DNA of 64,000 bases, taken from positions 16,980 through 80,979 of the forward strand of contig RDOG01000018.1 in the NCBI GenBank assembly GCA_011365055.1. Direction: 5' to 3'. The stretch is from Promethearchaeota archaeon. Lineage in GTDB: Archaea > Asgardarchaeota > Lokiarchaeia > Helarchaeales > RDOG01. The translations under genes and the position numbers were made by a program. The notes beneath the pieces were generated by a model. The model made no database searches. It was given only the letters and a program-made list of their open reading frames with translations, and had not been told where the DNA came from. Positions 1 to 54,709 of the stretch are shown here, one piece after another; within the stretch, counting starts at the first letter, position 1, and every line of letters starts with the position of its first letter.

Positions 1-439
1 CAGAAACCACTATTACCTTTATATCAAGCACTTCCAATCGTTCAGCTAGCAATTCAACAAGGTTTTCCCACGTGAATGCACGAGAAATCAAGATATTTTC
101 CAACGTTTTATTAGGGTTCAATCCGAGGAAAAGTGCATGGCGAGTTATGAAAAAAGGCTTGAAAGAAAAATTACAATCAAGAAATCCTACTTTAGAAGAT
201 TCGCTGAATCCACCAAGATTGGGAGGAAGCTGGCTATTAATACTAGTTGTGAGTAATATTTTTTGAATGATTCTTCTGTTCCCATATAATAAATAGAGAT
301 TTGGAGCCATGAATCCACCATCCAATAGGGCATCTAATTCTGGATCGCCAGTGCTTAATTTCTTAAAGTTTTTCTTCGATTCATACACGTATGTGGCTGG
401 TTTAATTTGAATGGAAATCGCTTCCTTTCTTTTTTTCAC
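1..439 (-). CDS. RadA/Rad51-like RecA-fold paralogue, N-terminal part, truncated by window edge
   Basis: The minus strand is open from GTG at 439 to the window edge with no stop (146 codons). An in-frame stop lies at 449-451, so GTG 439 is the first usable start. Residues about 27-38 read KLSTGDPELDAL, the pattern that precedes the ATPase core in RadA/Rad51. Further on come LPPNLGGFS, then VGFLDCNFSFKP (normally VYIDTEGTFRPERI) and LGLNPNKTLENILISRAFT, all collinear with RadA. The Walker A position reads YGNRRIIQKI instead of GEFGSGKTQ, so the glycines and the catalytic GKT are gone. It is probably a non-ATPase Rad51 paralogue acting as an accessory factor in recombination. The reading frame is intact, which argues against a pseudogene. 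The C-terminal half is outside the window. Confidence 0.75.
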   Translation of the reverse strand, partial: MKKRKEAISIQIKPATYVYESKKNFKKLSTGDPELDALLDGGFMAPNLYLLYGNRRIIQKILLTTSINSQLPPNLGGFSESSKVGFLDCNFSFKPFFITRHALFLGLNPNKTLENILISRAFTWENLVELLAERLEVLDIKVIVVS

Positions 440-29059: not shown

Positions 29060-31084
29060 TCATTCACCTAATTCTTTTAAGTATTCAAATGGAATCTCAT
29101 AAAATCTGAATAATAATTCATCCAACTCCATTAATTTATTCTGAATTAATGAATTTGTCTTTTTTTCTTCGATAGATATAATTTTCTCTTGTAAATCTAA
29201 AATTTCATTCACTTTTTGTTTTATTTGGTCAATTATTTTAGTATTTTCTGGATTTATAATGGGAAAAGGGATTTTTTCTATATATTGCGCTCTAAATTTG
29301 TAACTATTCCCCCATTTTCCTGATTTAAACATTAAATTAAATAATAATTTTGTCATTGAGCTATTTAATAGACCTAATAATAAATTGAGATCAATTCTAG
29401 ATCTGATTTCTGTTATGAAATAAGTACCACCATAAGAAAATTCTTGGGATTCCGTCAGAGTTGCCCTAAGTTCTGAACCCATCTCACTTAGTACAATTTT
29501 TTTCAAGAATTGTTCAGTTTCATTGGATAATTTTATATCAATTGCATTCTTATTTTCGATTTTCTTTAACACATTTTGATGAAATTCCCTGTCTTTTTTT
29601 AATTTATAATACCCATTAAAATTATTTAGGTGAAATTTCCTTATATTTTTGCCACGAATTTCCCTAACATATAATTTTTTTTCGATTGGATTTAATTTTT
29701 CATATTCTTTTTTAGAAATTGTTGTACCTCTTAGACCTTCTCCTACTTTTACTAATAATCCAAGTTTAACGAATTTTCTCTTGTCTAAAAGTTTATTTAA
29801 AATAGAAATTTTCTTTTCGTCATTTGAAATTACAATTAAATTATCAAAATCAATTATTTTTTGTTGAGAAATCACAGTTCCTTGCTCATTTAATTCTTCT
29901 CGTTTTCTTGGTTGCTTCATTATTATATTTTTTGAATATATTGATTTTTTAGCAAGAAAAATTGATGGAAATACTTCAATATTTTTAAAAACGCGATTTA
30001 ATGAATCATCTTGATATTCACTAAAATCTATAATTTCAATTAAATCTAGATTTTTTAGCATATATTCACGTAACTTTTCAGCATAAATATTTGTTAAAAA
30101 CCTGTTAGGTACAATAAAAGATAAAAAACCTTCAGTTTTTAACATCTCAATTGATTTTTTTATGAAATAAAAGTATATATCACTTTTTTGACCTGTTTTT
30201 ATGACCTCTTTAAATTCATTTTTATAAATCTTAGATAATTCAGGTTGAGATTTAATTAAAGTATCAGATCTAATATACGGAGGATTACCCATTATGATAG
30301 AAAATTCATTAATACGATTTGAAAAAAGTGGATCAATCAATGTATTCGATTGTATAAAATTCGTTTTAATGCATTCTAAAGGTTCATAGTCATTATTAAA
30401 ATCGATTAATAGAAAAAATCGTGCAATTTCCAAAGAAATAAAATCTAATTCAACACCATATAGACAATACTCTAAAATAGTTTTTTTTAATACACGTTTA
30501 TTAAATTTTTTTTTATCATTTATTTTATTATAGATGAAATTTGTCAATTGATTTAGCATTTCAATTAAAAAAATTCCGGTTCCCATTGATGGATCCAATA
30601 TTTTTAATGATTTAATGGTGTTTAAAGTTTTCATATCGTCATTTAATTGGTTGAAATCGATTGTTTTTGAATAATTCTCAATAATTTTTTTTACCATGTA
30701 TTTTACAATCTCTAACGGAGTATAAACCGACCCCAGACTACTATAAATCATAAAATGTTGTTGTAATTCGTTAATATAATACGAAAACTGCTCAAAATTT
30801 TTAAATATCTTGGAATATTTTTCTCCACAATCAAAAATAAAGTGTTTAATTATGTCATCCAATTCATTTTTTTTAAATAAATTCCGTTCAAAATTGAAAA
30901 TTTCACCAGGATATGATATTAGCTCTTCTTTTCCTAAATATATCAAAAAAAGATATGAAAATATCACTCGTTTACATTGAAAACTTGCTTTTATTTCACC
31001 AATTGCTTTCAAGTCTTTAATAGAAGTTTTCAATTCAGATAAAACTTGAGAAATATATTGAAAAAATTCATCTTTCAATTCCAT
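29060..31084 (-). CDS. N6-adenine-specific DNA methyltransferase (Eco57I/TaqI-like)
   Basis: The SAM-binding motif LDPSMGTGIFLIEML (about residues 160-174) and the catalytic MGNPPYI (NPPY, about residue 266) mark a gamma-class adenine methyltransferase. The C-terminal third (REIRGKNIRKFH, then FSYGGTYFITEIRSRID, and RAQYIEKIPFPI) resembles the TaqI-type target-recognition domain. At 674 residues it has no obvious nuclease domain and no restriction gene is adjacent, so it is probably an orphan or regulatory methylase. Its 5' end overlaps the AcnX gene by 17 bases, indicating co-transcription. Confidence 0.87.
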   Translation of the reverse strand: MELKDEFFQYISQVLSELKTSIKDLKAIGEIKASFQCKRVIFSYLFLIYLGKEELISYPGEIFNFERNLFKKNELDDIIKHFIFDCGEKYSKIFKNFEQFSYYINELQQHFMIYSSLGSVYTPLEIVKYMVKKIIENYSKTIDFNQLNDDMKTLNTIKSLKILDPSMGTGIFLIEMLNQLTNFIYNKINDKKKFNKRVLKKTILEYCLYGVELDFISLEIARFFLLIDFNNDYEPLECIKTNFIQSNTLIDPLFSNRINEFSIIMGNPPYIRSDTLIKSQPELSKIYKNEFKEVIKTGQKSDIYFYFIKKSIEMLKTEGFLSFIVPNRFLTNIYAEKLREYMLKNLDLIEIIDFSEYQDDSLNRVFKNIEVFPSIFLAKKSIYSKNIIMKQPRKREELNEQGTVISQQKIIDFDNLIVISNDEKKISILNKLLDKRKFVKLGLLVKVGEGLRGTTISKKEYEKLNPIEKKLYVREIRGKNIRKFHLNNFNGYYKLKKDREFHQNVLKKIENKNAIDIKLSNETEQFLKKIVLSEMGSELRATLTESQEFSYGGTYFITEIRSRIDLNLLLGLLNSSMTKLLFNLMFKSGKWGNSYKFRAQYIEKIPFPIINPENTKIIDQIKQKVNEILDLQEKIISIEEKKTNSLIQNKLMELDELLFRFYEIPFEYLKELGE

Positions 31085-32525
31085 AAAGATTCACAAAATC
31101 TTCAATTGATTTAAAAACTACATCACACTTTGACATTTGAGGTAAATATTTTGCAGCTTTTGCAGAATCTGTTCCAATTATCTTAAATCCCATCAATTCA
31201 ATGGGAGAAACAACCACACAACAATCAGAATAAATGTTAATATTCTGATTTTCCAATTCATTGATTAAAATTTCCCCTAATTCATCTTTAAACGGCTTTG
31301 CCGTAGATATCCACATGGGTACTTTTAATTTCTTATATTTAATAAATGAAATGAACTCTTTTAATTCCTGAGCATTTAAATGTGGACAACCGATTGATAT
31401 TAATTCAGGATCTTTTTTAGTCGTGTTTAATTCATTATAGACTTTTTTTAACTCGCGTTCAGTAAATTTAACCTTTTTTTTGATATTATTGGTATTATCG
31501 GGTTGCATTTTTGGTATATCTTCAATAAAAAATAGTGAAATTGAACCTGATGCAGCTCCAGCAGCAGCGATTGCTTTTAATTGTGTTTGATTTGGTTTGA
31601 TCCCTCTGTAATAAGGAAATTGAGAAATTAAACCTGCAAAATATCCTAAGGCACCAAAGTCAGCTCTACTTTTTAAATCACATTCGACCTTGATCTCCAC
31701 ATCAGGATTTCTATTTTCTTTAATGTGCATACCAAAATTAGTTGTAAATCCGGAAAGTGCAGAAATCAACGTTTTTACTGCATTTTCTCTATTTGTTTTC
31801 ACATTTAATACTGAATTAATGTAAGCAACTGCAGAACTTTCACCAAAAGCAACGTGAGAACCTTCAGTAAGTTCTACTAAATCATAGGGTATGCATGAGA
31901 CTGTTAAAGTTGCACCCATTTTTTTAAACAAATCAATAATTTCTTCTTGTTTTTTGGCAAATTCACTAGGAATTCCTTGTTTTTCCCAATTTTCTAAATC
32001 CATCCCGACAGGATTTAGAGTCGTGGGCACTATAAATTTTAAATTTTTATCAGAAAAATATTTTAGGACTTTTATACCTCCATCACCAATTGTTTTATAA
32101 GAAACTCCAGCTATCTGAACTCTTTCAATTGGAATAAAGCCTTTTGCACCTAAAATTTCAGCTTCTTTTATTAATAAATCTTGTAAAAATTTTGGAAGAT
32201 GAGAGATTTTATTTAATTCATCATTTGAAATTTTTTGTGGATATATCCCTTTTATACTAATAGGAATTCCTGCTAAAATACAACCTGCAATTACATTAGT
32301 ATCGGGTTCTTCAAGGATGATTTTTGATGGTGCTTTATTATTCTCCTTTAATTCTATTAAAGACATCACACCAACTGTAGATCCAGAACTTTTTGGGAAA
32401 GATAACTCGACTCCTGAAATGGATTGTCCGTATAAATCGTGTTTTTTATCAATTATTGTGCCATTTTTTCTATCAATTCCATCAAGTAAAGAAATAGGTT
32501 GTCCAGTTACTAATTTTCTAGGCAA
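31068..32525 (-). CDS. AcnX-type phosphomevalonate dehydratase, small and large domains fused
   Basis: Residues about 1-95 are the swivelling small subunit (DUF126): DGIDRKNGTIIDKKHDLYGQ, then FPKSSGSTVGVMSLIELK with the conserved Ser. Residues about 115-485 are the AcnX large subunit (DUF521): FIPIERVQIAGVSYKTIGDG, VPTTLNPVGMDLENW, AFGESSAVAYINSVLNVKTN, and probable cluster Cys in SCIPYD, GCPHLN and YSDCC. In the archaeal mevalonate branch this enzyme dehydrates 5-phosphomevalonate to trans-anhydromevalonate phosphate; many archaea use two subunits, and here they are one chain. TTG 32525 follows GAAGG, and the gene overlaps the UbiD gene by 8 bases. The flanking genes make this role much more likely than hydroxyproline dehydration. 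Confidence 0.87.
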   Translation of the reverse strand: MPRKLVTGQPISLLDGIDRKNGTIIDKKHDLYGQSISGVELSFPKSSGSTVGVMSLIELKENNKAPSKIILEEPDTNVIAGCILAGIPISIKGIYPQKISNDELNKISHLPKFLQDLLIKEAEILGAKGFIPIERVQIAGVSYKTIGDGGIKVLKYFSDKNLKFIVPTTLNPVGMDLENWEKQGIPSEFAKKQEEIIDLFKKMGATLTVSCIPYDLVELTEGSHVAFGESSAVAYINSVLNVKTNRENAVKTLISALSGFTTNFGMHIKENRNPDVEIKVECDLKSRADFGALGYFAGLISQFPYYRGIKPNQTQLKAIAAAGAASGSISLFFIEDIPKMQPDNTNNIKKKVKFTERELKKVYNELNTTKKDPELISIGCPHLNAQELKEFISFIKYKKLKVPMWISTAKPFKDELGEILINELENQNINIYSDCCVVVSPIELMGFKIIGTDSAKAAKYLPQMSKCDVVFKSIEDFVNLYGIER

Positions 32526-33798
32526 TTTTTTTCCTTCTCAATTTTATTTTTTCAAGTTTTTTTTCATCAAACGGAATTTTTCCTTGTTCAAAGGATTCTC
32601 TTCTATAATTAATTGGTTTAGTTGCATCAATCAAAATTTTTGATCCCATATCCCCCTCAGCACGCGGATCTAATGAAGATCCTTTTATGTTTTTTAATAC
32701 AATGGGATTATTTTCATCGAATTTTGTATTTAAACATAAAGCATTTTGAATTTCTGAATCATTAGTTACATTTACATCTTCATCTACAACAATGATGACT
32801 TTAGTGGAATAATGAGCTTTTAAAGTTCCATCTAGTACCTTTTTAATATCTTGATTTTCTTTTTTCTTGATGCTAATTATGGTCTTTAACCAACCAAAAC
32901 CGTCTGGATTTAAATATACTTTCTTTACATCAACATTCTGTTTCTTAATTTCATCATATATAATTGGTACACGAGGCATTCCCATCAATAGCTGATGATC
33001 ATTTGCACCAGGTAAAAGAGCATGATAGATATAATCTTCTCTTGCTAATACTTCATCAATTTTAAAGACAGGTTCTTTTCTTATTATGTCATATTTACTC
33101 GTGATGTCAACAAATGGACCTTCTTCAACAACTTTATCATGTAAAATTTTCCCTTTTATAATAATTTCTGATTCTGGAAGTCCATCCTTTACTTTAAGTT
33201 CACCTCCTTCTAATGCAGCTGCAAGTTCAAGCTCATTTTCTAATGGATCTAAGGATGTAGCAGCAGCAATTTGAACAGAAGAGGGTACACCAATACACAT
33301 GGTTATAGGTAAATCTTCACCGTGATTTATTGCATCCTGTACCATTTCATATAAATGACGCCTAACAATCCTTAAAGTTAATTCTTTTTCGTTTAAAATC
33401 AAGATTCTATGAGTTGAAACGTTGGTTCTTCCATTTTTGGTAGCTATAATCGCATCACTGGTAATGTATTTTCCTGCATCTTTTTCATAATGAGTCAAAA
33501 TGGGTAAATCTTTGAGAGAAATTTTCTTCATTTTAGGAAAATTATCGTGTTTTACCAACTTCCCAAAGTTATAACGTGCTTTAAGAAAGAATGGTATCCA
33601 TTCAGAGAAATCTTTTAATCCAATTGATTGAGAAAGCAAATCAGGATTAGAATAAATATTTCCAATTAAATTATATTTAGAAAAATATATGGGTTTACCA
33701 TCAAATTTTTTTAAAATTGCAGCAATTTCGAATTTTAAATCAAAATTCTCTTCTATATAAATGGGTTCTAATGTTTTAATAAAATTTCTAAAATTCAA
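32518..33798 (-). CDS. UbiD-family decarboxylase, probable anhydromevalonate phosphate decarboxylase
   Basis: Prenylated-FMN-dependent decarboxylase. Conserved UbiD elements are VSTHRILILNEKELTLRI, PITMCIGVPSSVQIAAATSL, and IIKGKILHDKVVEEGPFVD with the catalytic Glu region, then GMPRVPIIYDEI. The 426-residue length is typical. Placed between AcnX, isopentenyl phosphate kinase and UbiX, it most likely decarboxylates trans-anhydromevalonate 5-phosphate to isopentenyl phosphate. TTG 33798 lies behind GAGAGG and overlaps the kinase gene by 11 bases; its end overlaps AcnX by 8 bases. The substrate is inferred from context. Confidence 0.9.
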   Translation of the reverse strand: MNFRNFIKTLEPIYIEENFDLKFEIAAILKKFDGKPIYFSKYNLIGNIYSNPDLLSQSIGLKDFSEWIPFFLKARYNFGKLVKHDNFPKMKKISLKDLPILTHYEKDAGKYITSDAIIATKNGRTNVSTHRILILNEKELTLRIVRRHLYEMVQDAINHGEDLPITMCIGVPSSVQIAAATSLDPLENELELAAALEGGELKVKDGLPESEIIIKGKILHDKVVEEGPFVDITSKYDIIRKEPVFKIDEVLAREDYIYHALLPGANDHQLLMGMPRVPIIYDEIKKQNVDVKKVYLNPDGFGWLKTIISIKKKENQDIKKVLDGTLKAHYSTKVIIVVDEDVNVTNDSEIQNALCLNTKFDENNPIVLKNIKGSSLDPRAEGDMGSKILIDATKPINYRRESFEQGKIPFDEKKLEKIKLRRKKIA

Positions 33799-34567
33799 TT
33801 ACAGTTCCTCTCACTTTTTTTCCTTTTAAAATATTGGAAATTATCCCTTCCTTGTTACCATTAATGATATAGGATTTTATACTCTTTAAATTTTTTAGCT
33901 CTGATATTTTACCTGCCATTGAACCAGTAACATCATCATAATTAGCTTGATAAAGTGAATTTTTTATAATTTCATAATTTTCTTTTGATATTTTTTCAAT
34001 CAGATTTTTATCAGAGTCTAAAATTCCATCTACATTAGTAGCAAAAATGATTTTTTGTGGCTTTAATTTATTTGCTAAATATACAATTATTTGATCTCCG
34101 GACAAGATGGAGCATTTTTGAGCTTTATCAAAAGCAGGAACACCATATAAAACAGGAATTAATGAAATATCTATAAGATTTTTTATAAGCTCAGAATTTA
34201 TAGAAATTAATCTCTTATTTTCCATAATTGCAGATGCAGAAGGTTGTACAGGAATCGCAGGAAGTTTAAATTCTTGTAAGATTTTACAAACCTCGCTATT
34301 TAAAATATTTTGTAATACTTGAGTCTCTGCGAAGCTTAATAATTGATCAGGACTACTGATTCCTTCATGAATTCCAGTCCTTTTTACAATTGGGTGCCCA
34401 TATGATCCAGCACCATGTATTATTACTAATTTCATGGATTTATCATTGTAAGATTCTGCTATTTCATTACAGATCCTCTTTAAATTTTTAAAATTTAATT
34501 GAGGTTTTTGGATCTCTTTTTGGGTAATTATTGAACCGCCAATTTTTAGAAAAATTAATTCATTCAT
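33788..34567 (-). CDS. Isopentenyl phosphate kinase
   Basis: Amino-acid-kinase fold. It begins LIFLKIGGSIITQKEI (ATP phosphate binding), and IHGAGSYGHPIVK contains His58 at the position of the catalytic His specific to isopentenyl phosphate kinases. LSGDQIIVYLANKL, ATNVDGIL and VTGSMAGKISEL complete the nucleotide site. It phosphorylates isopentenyl phosphate to isopentenyl diphosphate, the last step of the archaeal mevalonate branch. At 259 residues it matches the family. ATG 34567 starts 7 bases after the ubiX stop. Confidence 0.93.
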   Translation of the reverse strand: MNELIFLKIGGSIITQKEIQKPQLNFKNLKRICNEIAESYNDKSMKLVIIHGAGSYGHPIVKRTGIHEGISSPDQLLSFAETQVLQNILNSEVCKILQEFKLPAIPVQPSASAIMENKRLISINSELIKNLIDISLIPVLYGVPAFDKAQKCSILSGDQIIVYLANKLKPQKIIFATNVDGILDSDKNLIEKISKENYEIIKNSLYQANYDDVTGSMAGKISELKNLKSIKSYIINGNKEGIISNILKGKKVRGTVIEF

Positions 34568-34574
34568 TTAAAAT

Positions 34575-35120
34575 CTACTCATATTTAATGAAGTCTTGTT
34601 TTATTCCCAATTGTTGACATACTTTTCCTACCATAAAATTGACCAAATCAGAAATGTTTTCTGGTTTATGATAAAAGCCCGGAGATGCAGGTAAAACAAC
34701 GCCACCAGCTCTTTTAATCTTTATCATATTTTCAAGATGAATTAGACTATATGGAGCTTCACGTGGCATGAGAATTAATTTTCTACCTTCTTTTAATGCA
34801 ACATCAGAAGTCCGAGTTATTAAATTTGAAGCGATACCATTTGCAATCATTCCTAACGTTTTCATGGAACAAGGAACGATTAAAACAGCATCAAAATGAA
34901 GAGAACTACTTGCTAGAGGAGCTTGAATGTCATTTACATCATAGGTTTTATGAACAAGTGATTCAAAATCGCAAGTAGTTTTTTTAAGTTCTTTTTCCAT
35001 TACTATTTTTGCAGCATTTGATATTATTAAATGGATTTCTGCTTTATCTTTTAAGAATTCCAAGCATCTTTGAGCGTAAATTACACCGGATGCACCAGTA
35101 ATGCAAAAAATTATTCTCAT
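34575..35120 (-). CDS. ubiX: UbiX-like flavin prenyltransferase
   Basis: It makes prenylated FMN from reduced FMN and dimethylallyl phosphate, supplying the cofactor for the UbiD-type decarboxylase two genes downstream. The sequence begins FCITGASGVIYAQRCLEFL, with later SSSLHFDAVLIVPCSMKTLG, ALKEGRKLILMPREAPYS and GGVVLPASPGFYHKP, all standard UbiX/Pad1 motifs. The 181-residue length is typical. It is first of the four isoprenoid genes and lies 20 bases after the upstream methyltransferase gene. Confidence 0.95.
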   Translation of the reverse strand: MRIIFCITGASGVIYAQRCLEFLKDKAEIHLIISNAAKIVMEKELKKTTCDFESLVHKTYDVNDIQAPLASSSLHFDAVLIVPCSMKTLGMIANGIASNLITRTSDVALKEGRKLILMPREAPYSLIHLENMIKIKRAGGVVLPASPGFYHKPENISDLVNFMVGKVCQQLGIKQDFIKYE

Positions 35121-35140
35121 TTTTTTCGCCTAAAGTCGTT

Positions 35141-36880
35141 TTAATTTAGAATTTCTTTATTTTTAAAATTTAAAAAGTCATTTTTCTCAAGGTCAAAGAC
35201 AAAATAATCTTTCAAATTTTTATTGTATATTTCTAAAACGTTTTCAAAGGTTATTAGTTTTAAATATTTTTGAATTTCAATTCTCATTAGGTTTCCTTTA
35301 TTGAACGGTCTCTTTGAATCTAAAAAAGCAATTGAAAGTAAAAAATTTCTTACGTCCTCACTATTTAATAGAATCCATATGTAAAACGCGGCATTAAAAC
35401 TCTCAAAGGATAAATAATAACTAGTATCATCTAACATTACGGGTTTATTTTTAATAGGAAATATTAAACAAAATTTTGGATTCTTGTTAAAACCAGATAT
35501 ACCTATCTTATATGGTTTAAAAGCATAATCTCCCACCCCAAAAATAGAGAATCTTGGTCTATCTTTATATACTATGGATTTTCTATTATCTAAATATTTT
35601 GAGTGAGAATTAAGATAAAACCATAATTTTGGATTCTTTAAGGCAATTATCTCAGGATCTTGATTAAGGGTTGCTTGAGTCATAATTATAAGATGCTTTA
35701 TAGAATTATTGTTAAGAATAGGAGATTTTAACATTGATCCTTTTAGAAAGGGATATAAATATTCGTCTTCTATTATTATTTCCTCATTTAAACCATTAAC
35801 ATATTTTCCATTGGTAATTGATTTTAATACCATAATTTTTGAAGCATCGTGTTTTACACCTTGACGCCACTCATACTTTGATTTGCCTTCTAAATGCTGA
35901 TAATTCTTATAATTTTCAAAATTTGAAACAAATACATTTCCAATATAACCAAATTCTTTAAAAATTTCATTTTTTTCGTTAAACGAACCCACTAAGCAAG
36001 ATATGTCCTGCCCTGAACCTAAATTTGTAACAAAAATTCCAGCATTTGCATTAATTTTAAATTCTTTATTTGCATCGATCGGAAATACCTTATTTTCAGA
36101 AACTTGTAGATTAAGATTTGGTATGGCTTTAATAATATTTTTTATGACGGAAGTTTTACATATCATTGCCATTTTGCTTTTAACAGTGCTAAATTTTTGA
36201 ATTACGTTTAAAATTATTGCTTCTGAAATGTCAAAATTTCCCTTTCCTGTAATTGCATCGATACCTCTAACATTTTTTATATTTTTCTTTTTAGGTAAGT
36301 TTTTCGAGTTTAAAATTGATAACTCACTATTCGTTATCCAAGGAGGATTCCCCAAAATTAGTAATTTATTGTTACTTTTAGCTATATCCTCCTCAAATCC
36401 TTTTCTTAATTTATGGCTGAATATATTATCACGATAAAATTCAATCTCGAGATTTAAATCACGTTCAAACGCTAATTTTATCAACTTTAACTTGAAAATC
36501 CATTCGTTTTTTCCTTGAAGATCAACACAATAGACATAATTTAGGGAGGGAAAATATTCTATGGCAGATATGATAAAATTACCTTCACCGCATGTTGGTT
36601 CGAAAATAATTTGCGGATTATAATTTTTATTCTTAAAATAGCAACAAATTTCATTTGTGAGATGAATTGGAGTTTGAAATTCACCATAATCCTTAATTTT
36701 TTTATTATTTTTTAAAAAATTCTTAATAAAAAATTGAAATTCTTTTAGATCCTCATTTGATCTTATGAAATTCTTTAATCCCGTTTGGTTTGTGATATAT
36801 GAATTTAATTCCTCATAATGAGGAAATTTTTTCAATATTTTTTTTACTTCATCTAAAAAATCTTTATCAAAGAATTCCAT
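35141..36880 (-). CDS. N6-adenine DNA methyltransferase-like protein (NPPW type)
   Basis: GEFQTPIHLTNEI is followed by SAM motif FEPTCGEGNFIISAI (about residues 92-106) and catalytic LGNPPWITNS (NPPW, about residue 178). The C-terminal region has FKPYKIGISGFNKNPKF and DDTSYYLSFESFNAAFYIW, resembling Eco57I-type recognition domains. No nuclease domain is apparent. It is unlike the 674-residue methyltransferase in detail but of the same broad class, and both lie in one minus-strand unit flanking the isoprenoid genes. ATG 36880. It is divergent from mfnD. Confidence 0.82.
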   Translation of the reverse strand: MEFFDKDFLDEVKKILKKFPHYEELNSYITNQTGLKNFIRSNEDLKEFQFFIKNFLKNNKKIKDYGEFQTPIHLTNEICCYFKNKNYNPQIIFEPTCGEGNFIISAIEYFPSLNYVYCVDLQGKNEWIFKLKLIKLAFERDLNLEIEFYRDNIFSHKLRKGFEEDIAKSNNKLLILGNPPWITNSELSILNSKNLPKKKNIKNVRGIDAITGKGNFDISEAIILNVIQKFSTVKSKMAMICKTSVIKNIIKAIPNLNLQVSENKVFPIDANKEFKINANAGIFVTNLGSGQDISCLVGSFNEKNEIFKEFGYIGNVFVSNFENYKNYQHLEGKSKYEWRQGVKHDASKIMVLKSITNGKYVNGLNEEIIIEDEYLYPFLKGSMLKSPILNNNSIKHLIIMTQATLNQDPEIIALKNPKLWFYLNSHSKYLDNRKSIVYKDRPRFSIFGVGDYAFKPYKIGISGFNKNPKFCLIFPIKNKPVMLDDTSYYLSFESFNAAFYIWILLNSEDVRNFLLSIAFLDSKRPFNKGNLMRIEIQKYLKLITFENVLEIYNKNLKDYFVFDLEKNDFLNFKNKEILN

Positions 36881-49450: not shown

Positions 49451-49987
49451 CTATACTTTTGATTTTAATTGTTTGGCTTTTTGTTTAACAACTGCGGATG
49501 AAATGTATGAAAACATTTCCTCAACATTTTCACCTGTTTTTGCAGAAGTTTCTATTAATTTAGTTGATAAACGCTCCAATATTTTTTGAGGAAATAAATT
49601 CTCTCGAATGGGCGGCAAATCGGATTTATTTCTTACAATACAAATTGGAACATCCCCATTAGCATACTGATAAACTTCATCGATCCATTTATCTAATTGT
49701 AAATAACTTTCAAGGTCTGTATTTGAATAAACTATAATGGCACCATCAGCTCCTCTCATAAATTTTGCCCTTCTTGAAAGCCATTTATCTTGACCACCCA
49801 TGTCCCATAACATTAATCTAATTTTAGCTTTACCGTAAAGTTCTAATTGTTTAGTTAAAAAATCTACACCCAAAGTAGTTTTATAATCTTCTGTAAATTT
49901 ATTCTTTATGAAACGCACTATTAAAGACGTTTTACCTACCGCGGGATTACCTAAGACAACAATTTTAAATGCAAAATCAGCGCTCAA
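49451..49987 (-). CDS. Ras/Rab-like small GTPase
   Basis: All five G motifs are intact: G1 GNPAVGKTS (13-21), G2 Thr in YKTTLGVDF (35-43), G3 WDMGGQD (61-67), G4 NKSD (120-123) and G5 TSAK (147-150). The 178-residue length and the spacing are Ras-superfamily standard. The C-terminus ends KQLKSKV with no prenylation Cys, so membrane attachment, if any, is by another route or through a partner. The GQ of G3 suggests active hydrolysis. Start is TTG 49987 behind AAGGTGA. The longin-like gene follows in the same operon. Eukaryote-like GTPases of this kind are abundant in Asgard archaea. Confidence 0.95.
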   Translation of the reverse strand: MSADFAFKIVVLGNPAVGKTSLIVRFIKNKFTEDYKTTLGVDFLTKQLELYGKAKIRLMLWDMGGQDKWLSRRAKFMRGADGAIIVYSNTDLESYLQLDKWIDEVYQYANGDVPICIVRNKSDLPPIRENLFPQKILERLSTKLIETSAKTGENVEEMFSYISSAVVKQKAKQLKSKV

Positions 49988-54298: not shown

Positions 54299-54709
54299 AT
54301 GAGAGAAATTGAAGAAATTTGGATCATCAATGAATCTGGAATAACATTATTTAATTTTTCAAAGGATGAATTAGATCCAACATTATTTGGGGGTTTTATT
54401 TCAGCAATTCAAAATTTTATAAAGGAAATCGGAAATCAAAAAATAGAATCAATCATTATGGGTTCATCTCAATTAACATTATTAAAAAGTAAATATGATT
54501 TAATTTTTGTGGCTCGATCTGATAAGAAAATAAAGAAAAAAAACATTGAAAAACATTTAAATACGGTAGTAAAAAGTTTTTTTGAGTTATATGAAGACGA
54601 AGTAAAAGATTGGGATTGCGATTCGACCAAATTTGATGATTTTAAAGATGTTATTGAATATATTTTTGATGATAAACCTGAATCAAAATTTGAGAAATCA
54701 TTTTGGTAA
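54299..54709 (+). CDS. Longin-like small protein
   Basis: At 136 residues it has the same layout as the protein at 49017-49439: IEEIWIINESGITLFNFSKD, LFGGFISAIQNFIKEIG, YDLIFVARSDKKI, then a C-terminal helix and the motif FDDFKDVIEYIF. The strand-helix-strand order fits a longin or roadblock domain, the fold that regulates small GTPases. There is no GTPase beside it. TATA-like sequence (TGTATATATAA, near 54252-54262) precedes it. It starts at ATG 54299. Confidence 0.6.
   Translation: MREIEEIWIINESGITLFNFSKDELDPTLFGGFISAIQNFIKEIGNQKIESIIMGSSQLTLLKSKYDLIFVARSDKKIKKKNIEKHLNTVVKSFFELYEDEVKDWDCDSTKFDDFKDVIEYIFDDKPESKFEKSFW

Follow-up and report, generated by a model that had tools for sequence, protein, structure and literature searches.

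A predicted operon of the DNA polymerase PolB2, an inactivated RadA (iRadA; arCOG07763, arCOG04294 and arCOG08101) and arCOG07300 was described by Makarova et al. 2014 (PMC4104785), and Timinskas et al. 2025 (PMC11791011) described the PolB2 mutasome, which consists of PolB2, iRadA and PPB2. The PolB2 of Sulfolobus (Dpo2) is reported to act as an extender polymerase and to give rise to targeted mutations (PMC8764526, PMC7390963). Here we describe a gene at the left edge of a 64,000-nucleotide stretch of DNA (hereafter the window) from a Promethearchaeota archaeon of the Helarchaeales (contig RDOG01000018.1, positions 16,980 to 80,979). This gene very probably encodes iRadA, that is, a catalytically dead subunit of the archaeal PolB2 mutasome with the RadA/Rad51 fold. 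A protein of this kind has been described already, and it most likely works in translesion synthesis and not in recombination. What is new here is two modest extensions: the spread of iRadA through the Asgards and, in Lokiarchaea, the presence of clamp-type motifs on iRadA as well as on PolB2.

Published iRadA has a RadA core without the ATPase residues, lacks the N-terminal helical domain, is accompanied by the PPB2 and PolB2 genes and, in part of the family, possesses a clamp-binding motif near its C-terminus (PMC11791011). All of the iRadA features that are testable on the window gene were found in it: the RadA core, the missing ATPase residues, the missing N-terminal helical domain and the C-terminal clamp-type motif. 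Compared with canonical archaeal RadA and eukaryotic Rad51 and Dmc1, the window protein is without Walker A, the Walker B Asp, the catalytic Glu and the N-terminal domain, and has a PCNA-type motif in addition. A similar architecture has been argued for the E. coli Pol V mutasome (UmuD'2C-RecA), in which a RecA-family protein is likewise part of a polymerase complex (PMC11791011). The two complexes differ in that the polymerases belong to different families and that the RecA-family subunit here is a dedicated ATP-free paralogue.

We found little literature on Asgard iRadA. Among the matches listed for 'iRadA', PMC11791011 alone concerns the protein, judging by title; the word 'Asgard' is absent from its main text, although its supplements may list Asgard sequences. 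A Thorarchaeal PolB2 is aligned in one of the published papers that mention both Asgards and PolB2, and the main text of a 2025 phylogeny of Asgard RadA (PMC12722695) mentions neither 'Walker' nor 'inactiv'.

The window gene and its family

Among public proteins, a search recovered P0001, which comes from a contig of 80,979 bases, is identical to the window frame across all 146 window residues, has a full length of 252 amino acids and has no internal stop. Since P0001 is open over 252 amino acids, the window gene is whole, with its stop about 320 bases to the left of the window. The same search returned ten further relatives, one of which (P0003) is named Candidatus Helarchaeota. The features of the gene, all on the minus strand, are as follows.

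2..439 (-): 5' part of the iRadA gene (146 of 252 codons); open frame, Pfam Rad51 match, 100% identical to P0001; runs past the left window edge
437..439 (-): GTG start codon; first start after an upstream in-frame stop, and the same first residue as in P0001
395..406 (-): residues 12-15, IKPA, a possible remnant of the FxxA oligomerisation motif; aligns with FKTA of 2bke, VKSA in P0002; a weak assignment
257..286 (-): residues 52-61, YGNRRIIQKI, erased Walker A (P-loop); from the Dmc1/RadA alignment, similar in relatives (YGDKKLTTNI), in a high-confidence part of the model
149..178 (-): residues 88-97, DCNFSFKPFF, at the position of RadA DTEGTFRPE, catalytic Glu gone; from the alignment to Dmc1/RadA
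2..22 (-): residues 140-146, IKVIVVS, Walker B strand without its Asp; RadA frames have KLIIVDS

The window frame matched Pfam Rad51 with 55 bits (cut-off, 22) over residues 23-134. Among PDB sequences, the full-length protein matched a yeast Dmc1 (7ej6) and a crenarchaeal RadA (2bke) best, both of which are collinear with it. These matches bear out the collinear relation to RadA/Rad51 that a preliminary description of this DNA had claimed. That description had pointed to the continuation beyond the left edge as informative, and this continuation, read through P0001, is open. Match lists of Foldseek and VIA were used solely for confirming the RadA fold. In P0001 the core begins near residue 23, and there is neither an N-terminal helical domain nor anything confidently folded ahead of the core. 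The FxxA motif serves in the oligomerisation of RadA; in the predicted model, residues 1-18, including IKPA, are disordered (predicted local distance difference test score below 50). No relative turned up when genome contigs were scanned with the 146 residues of the window frame.

As a candidate, canonical RadA recombinase was rejected: P0001 scored 62.6 and 47.9 bits against cut-offs of 259 (NF003301) and 361 (TIGR02236), and Walker A GxxxxGK[ST] is absent. We also considered that the protein might be a merely diverged RadA paralogue that still binds ATP, of the RadB type or another, given the missing N-terminal domain and a weak match (E 1.7e-4) between P0001 and a RadB model. P0001 reached only 21.6 and 15.3 bits against the RadB cut-offs of 172 (TIGR02237) and 278 (NF006861), and no ATP motifs are present in it, so that this explanation is very improbable.

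Loss of the ATPase motifs

The preliminary description had read the GxxxxGKT segment as YGNRRIIQKI. This reading is correct, and the Walker B Asp and the catalytic Glu are lost as well. The pattern G....GK[ST] was found in none of the 125 family proteins, the window protein counted (P0004 and P0011 do not cover residues 52-61), and the comparison of Walker motifs among homologues gave no intact Walker A in any relative read that belongs to this family. At the DTEGTFRPE position, DGNNRFNPY is present in 93 of the 125. Among 40 whole-genome loci the pattern was missing in 30 and present in 10; these loci were picked by hand, and most of the 10 carriers had been taken as weaker RadA-family matches, canonical RadA among them.

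The destruction of three ATPase motifs could also be the mark of a decaying RadA duplicate heading to a pseudogene, or of a sequencing error. We give almost no credence to this explanation. The frame is open over 252 codons, relatives at 84% and 76% identity carry the same losses, and the C-terminal motif is conserved. Strong purifying selection was found in the Lokiarchaeal branch, for which the ratio of nonsynonymous to synonymous substitution rates was computed (the near relatives of the window gene were available as proteins only).

Judging from its sequence, the window protein is a RadA look-alike that has permanently lost its ATP site. The open continuation and the lack of an intact Walker A in the relatives sustain the earlier claim of a selected, non-ATPase member of the RadA/Rad51 family. 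With both the ATP site and the N-terminal domain gone, recombinase activity is not expected of the protein.

Gene neighbourhood in relatives

We examined the neighbourhood of 51 Lokiarchaeal loci, which do not correspond to 51 genomes (L005/L008, L034/L046 and L028/L051 share isolates). In 42 of them a PPB2-type small gene and a B-family DNA polymerase lie downstream of iRadA. The small protein has about 90 amino acids and mostly begins with MGRT[VI]P (36 frames inspected); its frame lies 28 to 7370 bases from iRadA, on the same strand in 40 loci and on the opposite strand in 2. In all 39 of the polymerase frames that cover the region, motif C reads HGIVDS, the first catalytic Asp being replaced. 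The MGRT small protein and the HGIVDS polymerase bear the marks of PPB2 and PolB2. Of the nine loci without these partners, five (L001, L012, L013, L016 and L022) have a contig end close by, which leaves 0.4-4.0 kb downstream.

The same arrangement was found outside Lokiarchaea. Three Nitrospirota loci retrieved by the Asgard alignment (L052, L053 and L054) all have the order iRadA, small protein, polymerase. When the surroundings of PPB2 were examined in 10 genomes, iRadA, PPB2 and PolB2 stood side by side in seven (L133-L139), which belong to another Asgard group; in L140-L142, PPB2 was alone inside the fetched 2-3.5 kb, and the genome of L140 (G097) has iRadA elsewhere. Compared with the published cases, however, the genes in Asgards are often separated or unlinked.

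The lineage of the window itself was compared by the score of ribosomal protein S12. The nearest of 227 genomes were G092, G090, G091 and G093 (81, 78, 74 and 78% identity, respectively), and P0001 shares 43% and 44% of its residues with the iRadAs of G092 and G093. The start of PPB2 abuts or overlaps the stop of iRadA in three of these four genomes (G092, G093 and G090), and G091 has PPB2 on a different contig. As for PolB2, G092 has it some 20 kb beyond, G093 and G091 have it on a separate contig, and in G090 it was not found at the cut used. Neither PPB2 nor PolB2 was found within the 64-kb window, as is expected if both lie to its left. Separately, a FEN1-family paralogue (256 bits, under the cut-off) was seen near PolB2 of G093 on the same strand (G093:C34:1047-5048).

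Spread in Asgard genomes

We scanned 227 genomes of the phylum with a broad iRadA profile (E 1e-40 or better) and a PolB2 profile (E 1e-100). iRadA was found in at least 111 genomes, the best match of the weakest genome being 1.7e-40; PPB2 was found in 130, and PolB2 profile matches in 132. Of the 111 genomes with iRadA, 106 have a PPB2 match; 24 genomes have PPB2 without an iRadA match, 92 have neither, and all three genes were found in 102. These lists were compiled by hand from the profile-match tables; fragments are counted in the 111, as is a match in G226 that has two internal stops. In 11 genomes PolB2 was matched without PPB2 at the cut used, and some of these matches may be other B-family polymerases. 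Seven of the 24 PPB2-only genomes have an iRadA under the cut beside PPB2 (L133-L139). These sub-cut proteins and the divergent iRadAs of G051-G061 make the value of 111 a lower bound.

A first profile for separating iRadA from RadA was dropped, because the canonical RadA of G169 (L099, GEYRTGKT) scored among its weak iRadA matches. The broader profile separates them, with iRadA at 139 bits or more versus 131 for the canonical RadA of G169, and the divergent iRadAs of G051-G061 still rank with canonical RadA.

Some further members of the RadA family were observed as well. G161 has six iRadA-like matches. The Lokiarchaeal loci L088, L087 (G003) and L091 (G004) have RadA-family frames of 276, 444 and 417 codons with an intact Walker A, besides one of about 335-347 codons. 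The tail of the 417-codon frame (G004:C48, 39067-39687) looks like a helix-hairpin-helix by its residues, and another FEN1-family paralogue (33602-34621) lies near it.

A C-terminal clamp-type motif on iRadA and PolB2

P0001 ends with QKSLDTFMR, which by sequence contains a PCNA-binding-type motif (PCNA-interacting protein motif, PIP), QKSLDTFM. A loose form of this tail motif was present in all 51 Lokiarchaeal iRadAs, as compared with 6 of 406 unrelated long frames from the same loci, and the strict form [TSM][LIM][DE]xW in 46 of the 51. An exact DNA pattern for the T[LI..]DxWF end occurred 8 times in 7 genomes, and 6 of these occurrences were iRadA genes; one of the other two runs on into TGG rather than a stop, and the reversed pattern gave 0.

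FEN1 is a classical client of PCNA. Tails of FEN1 were usable in 15 of the 16 loci over the family cut-off, L145 being left out since its frame is not FEN1. They end with QKSLDKWF in G092, with QVSLDDFFK and the like in Lokiarchaea, and with QSSLTDFF or QSSLSDFF in the group G180-G226. Compared with the FEN1 ends of the same groups, the iRadA tails resemble the local clamp motifs. We take the iRadA tails to be probable PCNA binders.

A clamp-type end (for example, QKDLSCFI) was also found on 35 of 36 complete Lokiarchaeal PolB2 polymerases versus 2 of the 406 control frames; the 36 are the loci with a complete polymerase end out of the 42 with PolB2, the other six being dropped. In 35 of these 36 loci both iRadA and PolB2 carry the motif. 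In contrast, motifs on both subunits were found rarely in the published survey (PMC11791011). PolB2 of the G180-G226 genomes G181, G194, G185 and G219 has no tail motif.

Recombination mediator or mutasome subunit

The preliminary description had likened the protein to eukaryotic Rad51 paralogues as a recombination accessory. The degenerate paralogues of eukaryotes (Psy3-Csm2 and the like) have the Rad51 fold without a working ATP site and act in recombination, and we know of no PolB2 or PPB2 partners for them. By analogy, iRadA might be an ATP-free mediator that caps or seeds RadA filaments independently of PolB2. Several observations fit this explanation, and these, with some others, weigh against a mutasome subunit. 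Four divergent Lokiarchaeal members (L046, L048, L050 and L051) have neither PPB2 nor PolB2 nearby within at least 5.9 kb of downstream DNA, L046 and L051 being additional copies in the isolates of L034 and L028. In the group G180-G226, neither partner lies within about 8-9 kb of iRadA in the seven loci checked, and in G181 iRadA and the PPB2-PolB2 pair are about 230 kb apart; PPB2 and PolB2 are paired in the four genomes of this group fetched for the purpose. All 10 inspected frames of the group have an FxTAD linker as in canonical RadA, where P0001 has IKPA. The six matches in G161 may likewise suit a mediator, and five iRadA genomes are without a PPB2 match. For the window gene itself, which is cut by the window edge, a neighbouring PPB2 is a prediction. 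As for the tails, both motifs were defined after the family had been inspected, and the passing control frames (6 for iRadA, 2 for PolB2) belong to unrelated genes. The strict form fails in 5 of the 51 Lokiarchaeal iRadAs and the loose form in P0003 (QKSLESLLR), which is closely related to the window protein. The exact DNA pattern misses the iRadA of G002, and PolB2 of G092 and G093 has no tail motif.

Nevertheless, a mediator fits poorly with the presence of PPB2 in 106 of the 111 iRadA genomes and with the three-gene neighbourhood in Lokiarchaea, in the other Asgard group (7 of 7) and in Nitrospirota. Published modelling also scores PolB2 poorly with active RadA and well with iRadA (PMC11791011). 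Thus, we regard a recombination mediator as improbable. The neighbourhood, the phyletic co-occurrence and the clamp-type tail lead instead to a translesion complex with PolB2, and the likening to Rad51 paralogues was not supported.

Proposed mechanism

From the predicted fold, the losses, the partners of the relatives and the tail, together with published models and Sulfolobus genetics, we infer binding and function of the mutasome subunit as follows. Without ATP hydrolysis or strand exchange, iRadA would offer to PolB2 the face by which RadA subunits contact each other. Most likely as a scaffold and clamp tether, iRadA would hold PolB2 along with the N-terminal arm of PPB2 and anchor them to PCNA where a fork has stalled, and PolB2 could then extend primers past the lesion.

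We further speculate that Asgard iRadA is a three-way adaptor, with a face for PolB2, a tail for PCNA and, in lineages of the G180-G226 type, an FxTAD linker that docks the end of a RadA filament. We think this unlikely. If it were true, a RadA filament at a stalled fork would recruit the clamp and the extender polymerase, as an archaeal counterpart of the activation of Pol V by the RecA filament, and in Lokiarchaea the second clamp motif, on PolB2, would allow the PCNA ring to be gripped at two points.

Other genes in the window

At 31068..35120 (-), the window has genes for aconitase X, a UbiD-like protein, a protein of the amino-acid-kinase fold and a flavoprotein (UbiX-like), which resemble the archaeal modified mevalonate route. 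The cluster with its flanks spans 29060..36880 (-), with an Eco57I-type methylase gene at 29060..31084 and a 579-amino-acid frame at 35141..36880 that has no Pfam match at E 0.001. A Ras-family small GTPase (139 bits) is encoded at 49451..49987 (-) and a weak longin-like protein (20.8 bits, under the cut-off of 26.1) at 54299..54709 (+); both kinds of protein are common in Asgard genomes. An Rfam scan and a tRNA scan of the window gave no matches.

Implications

When an Asgard genome encodes a RadA without Walker motifs, the protein most likely belongs to a mutasome and is not a budding paralogue of the eukaryotic Rad51 type. This matters when RadA paralogues are counted for tracing the origins of Rad51 and Dmc1. 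About one in two of the Asgard genomes scanned has parts of the error-prone PolB2 pathway (130 of 227 with PPB2, 102 with all three genes), and the clamp-type motifs on both subunits make a clear test case for how the complex sits on PCNA.
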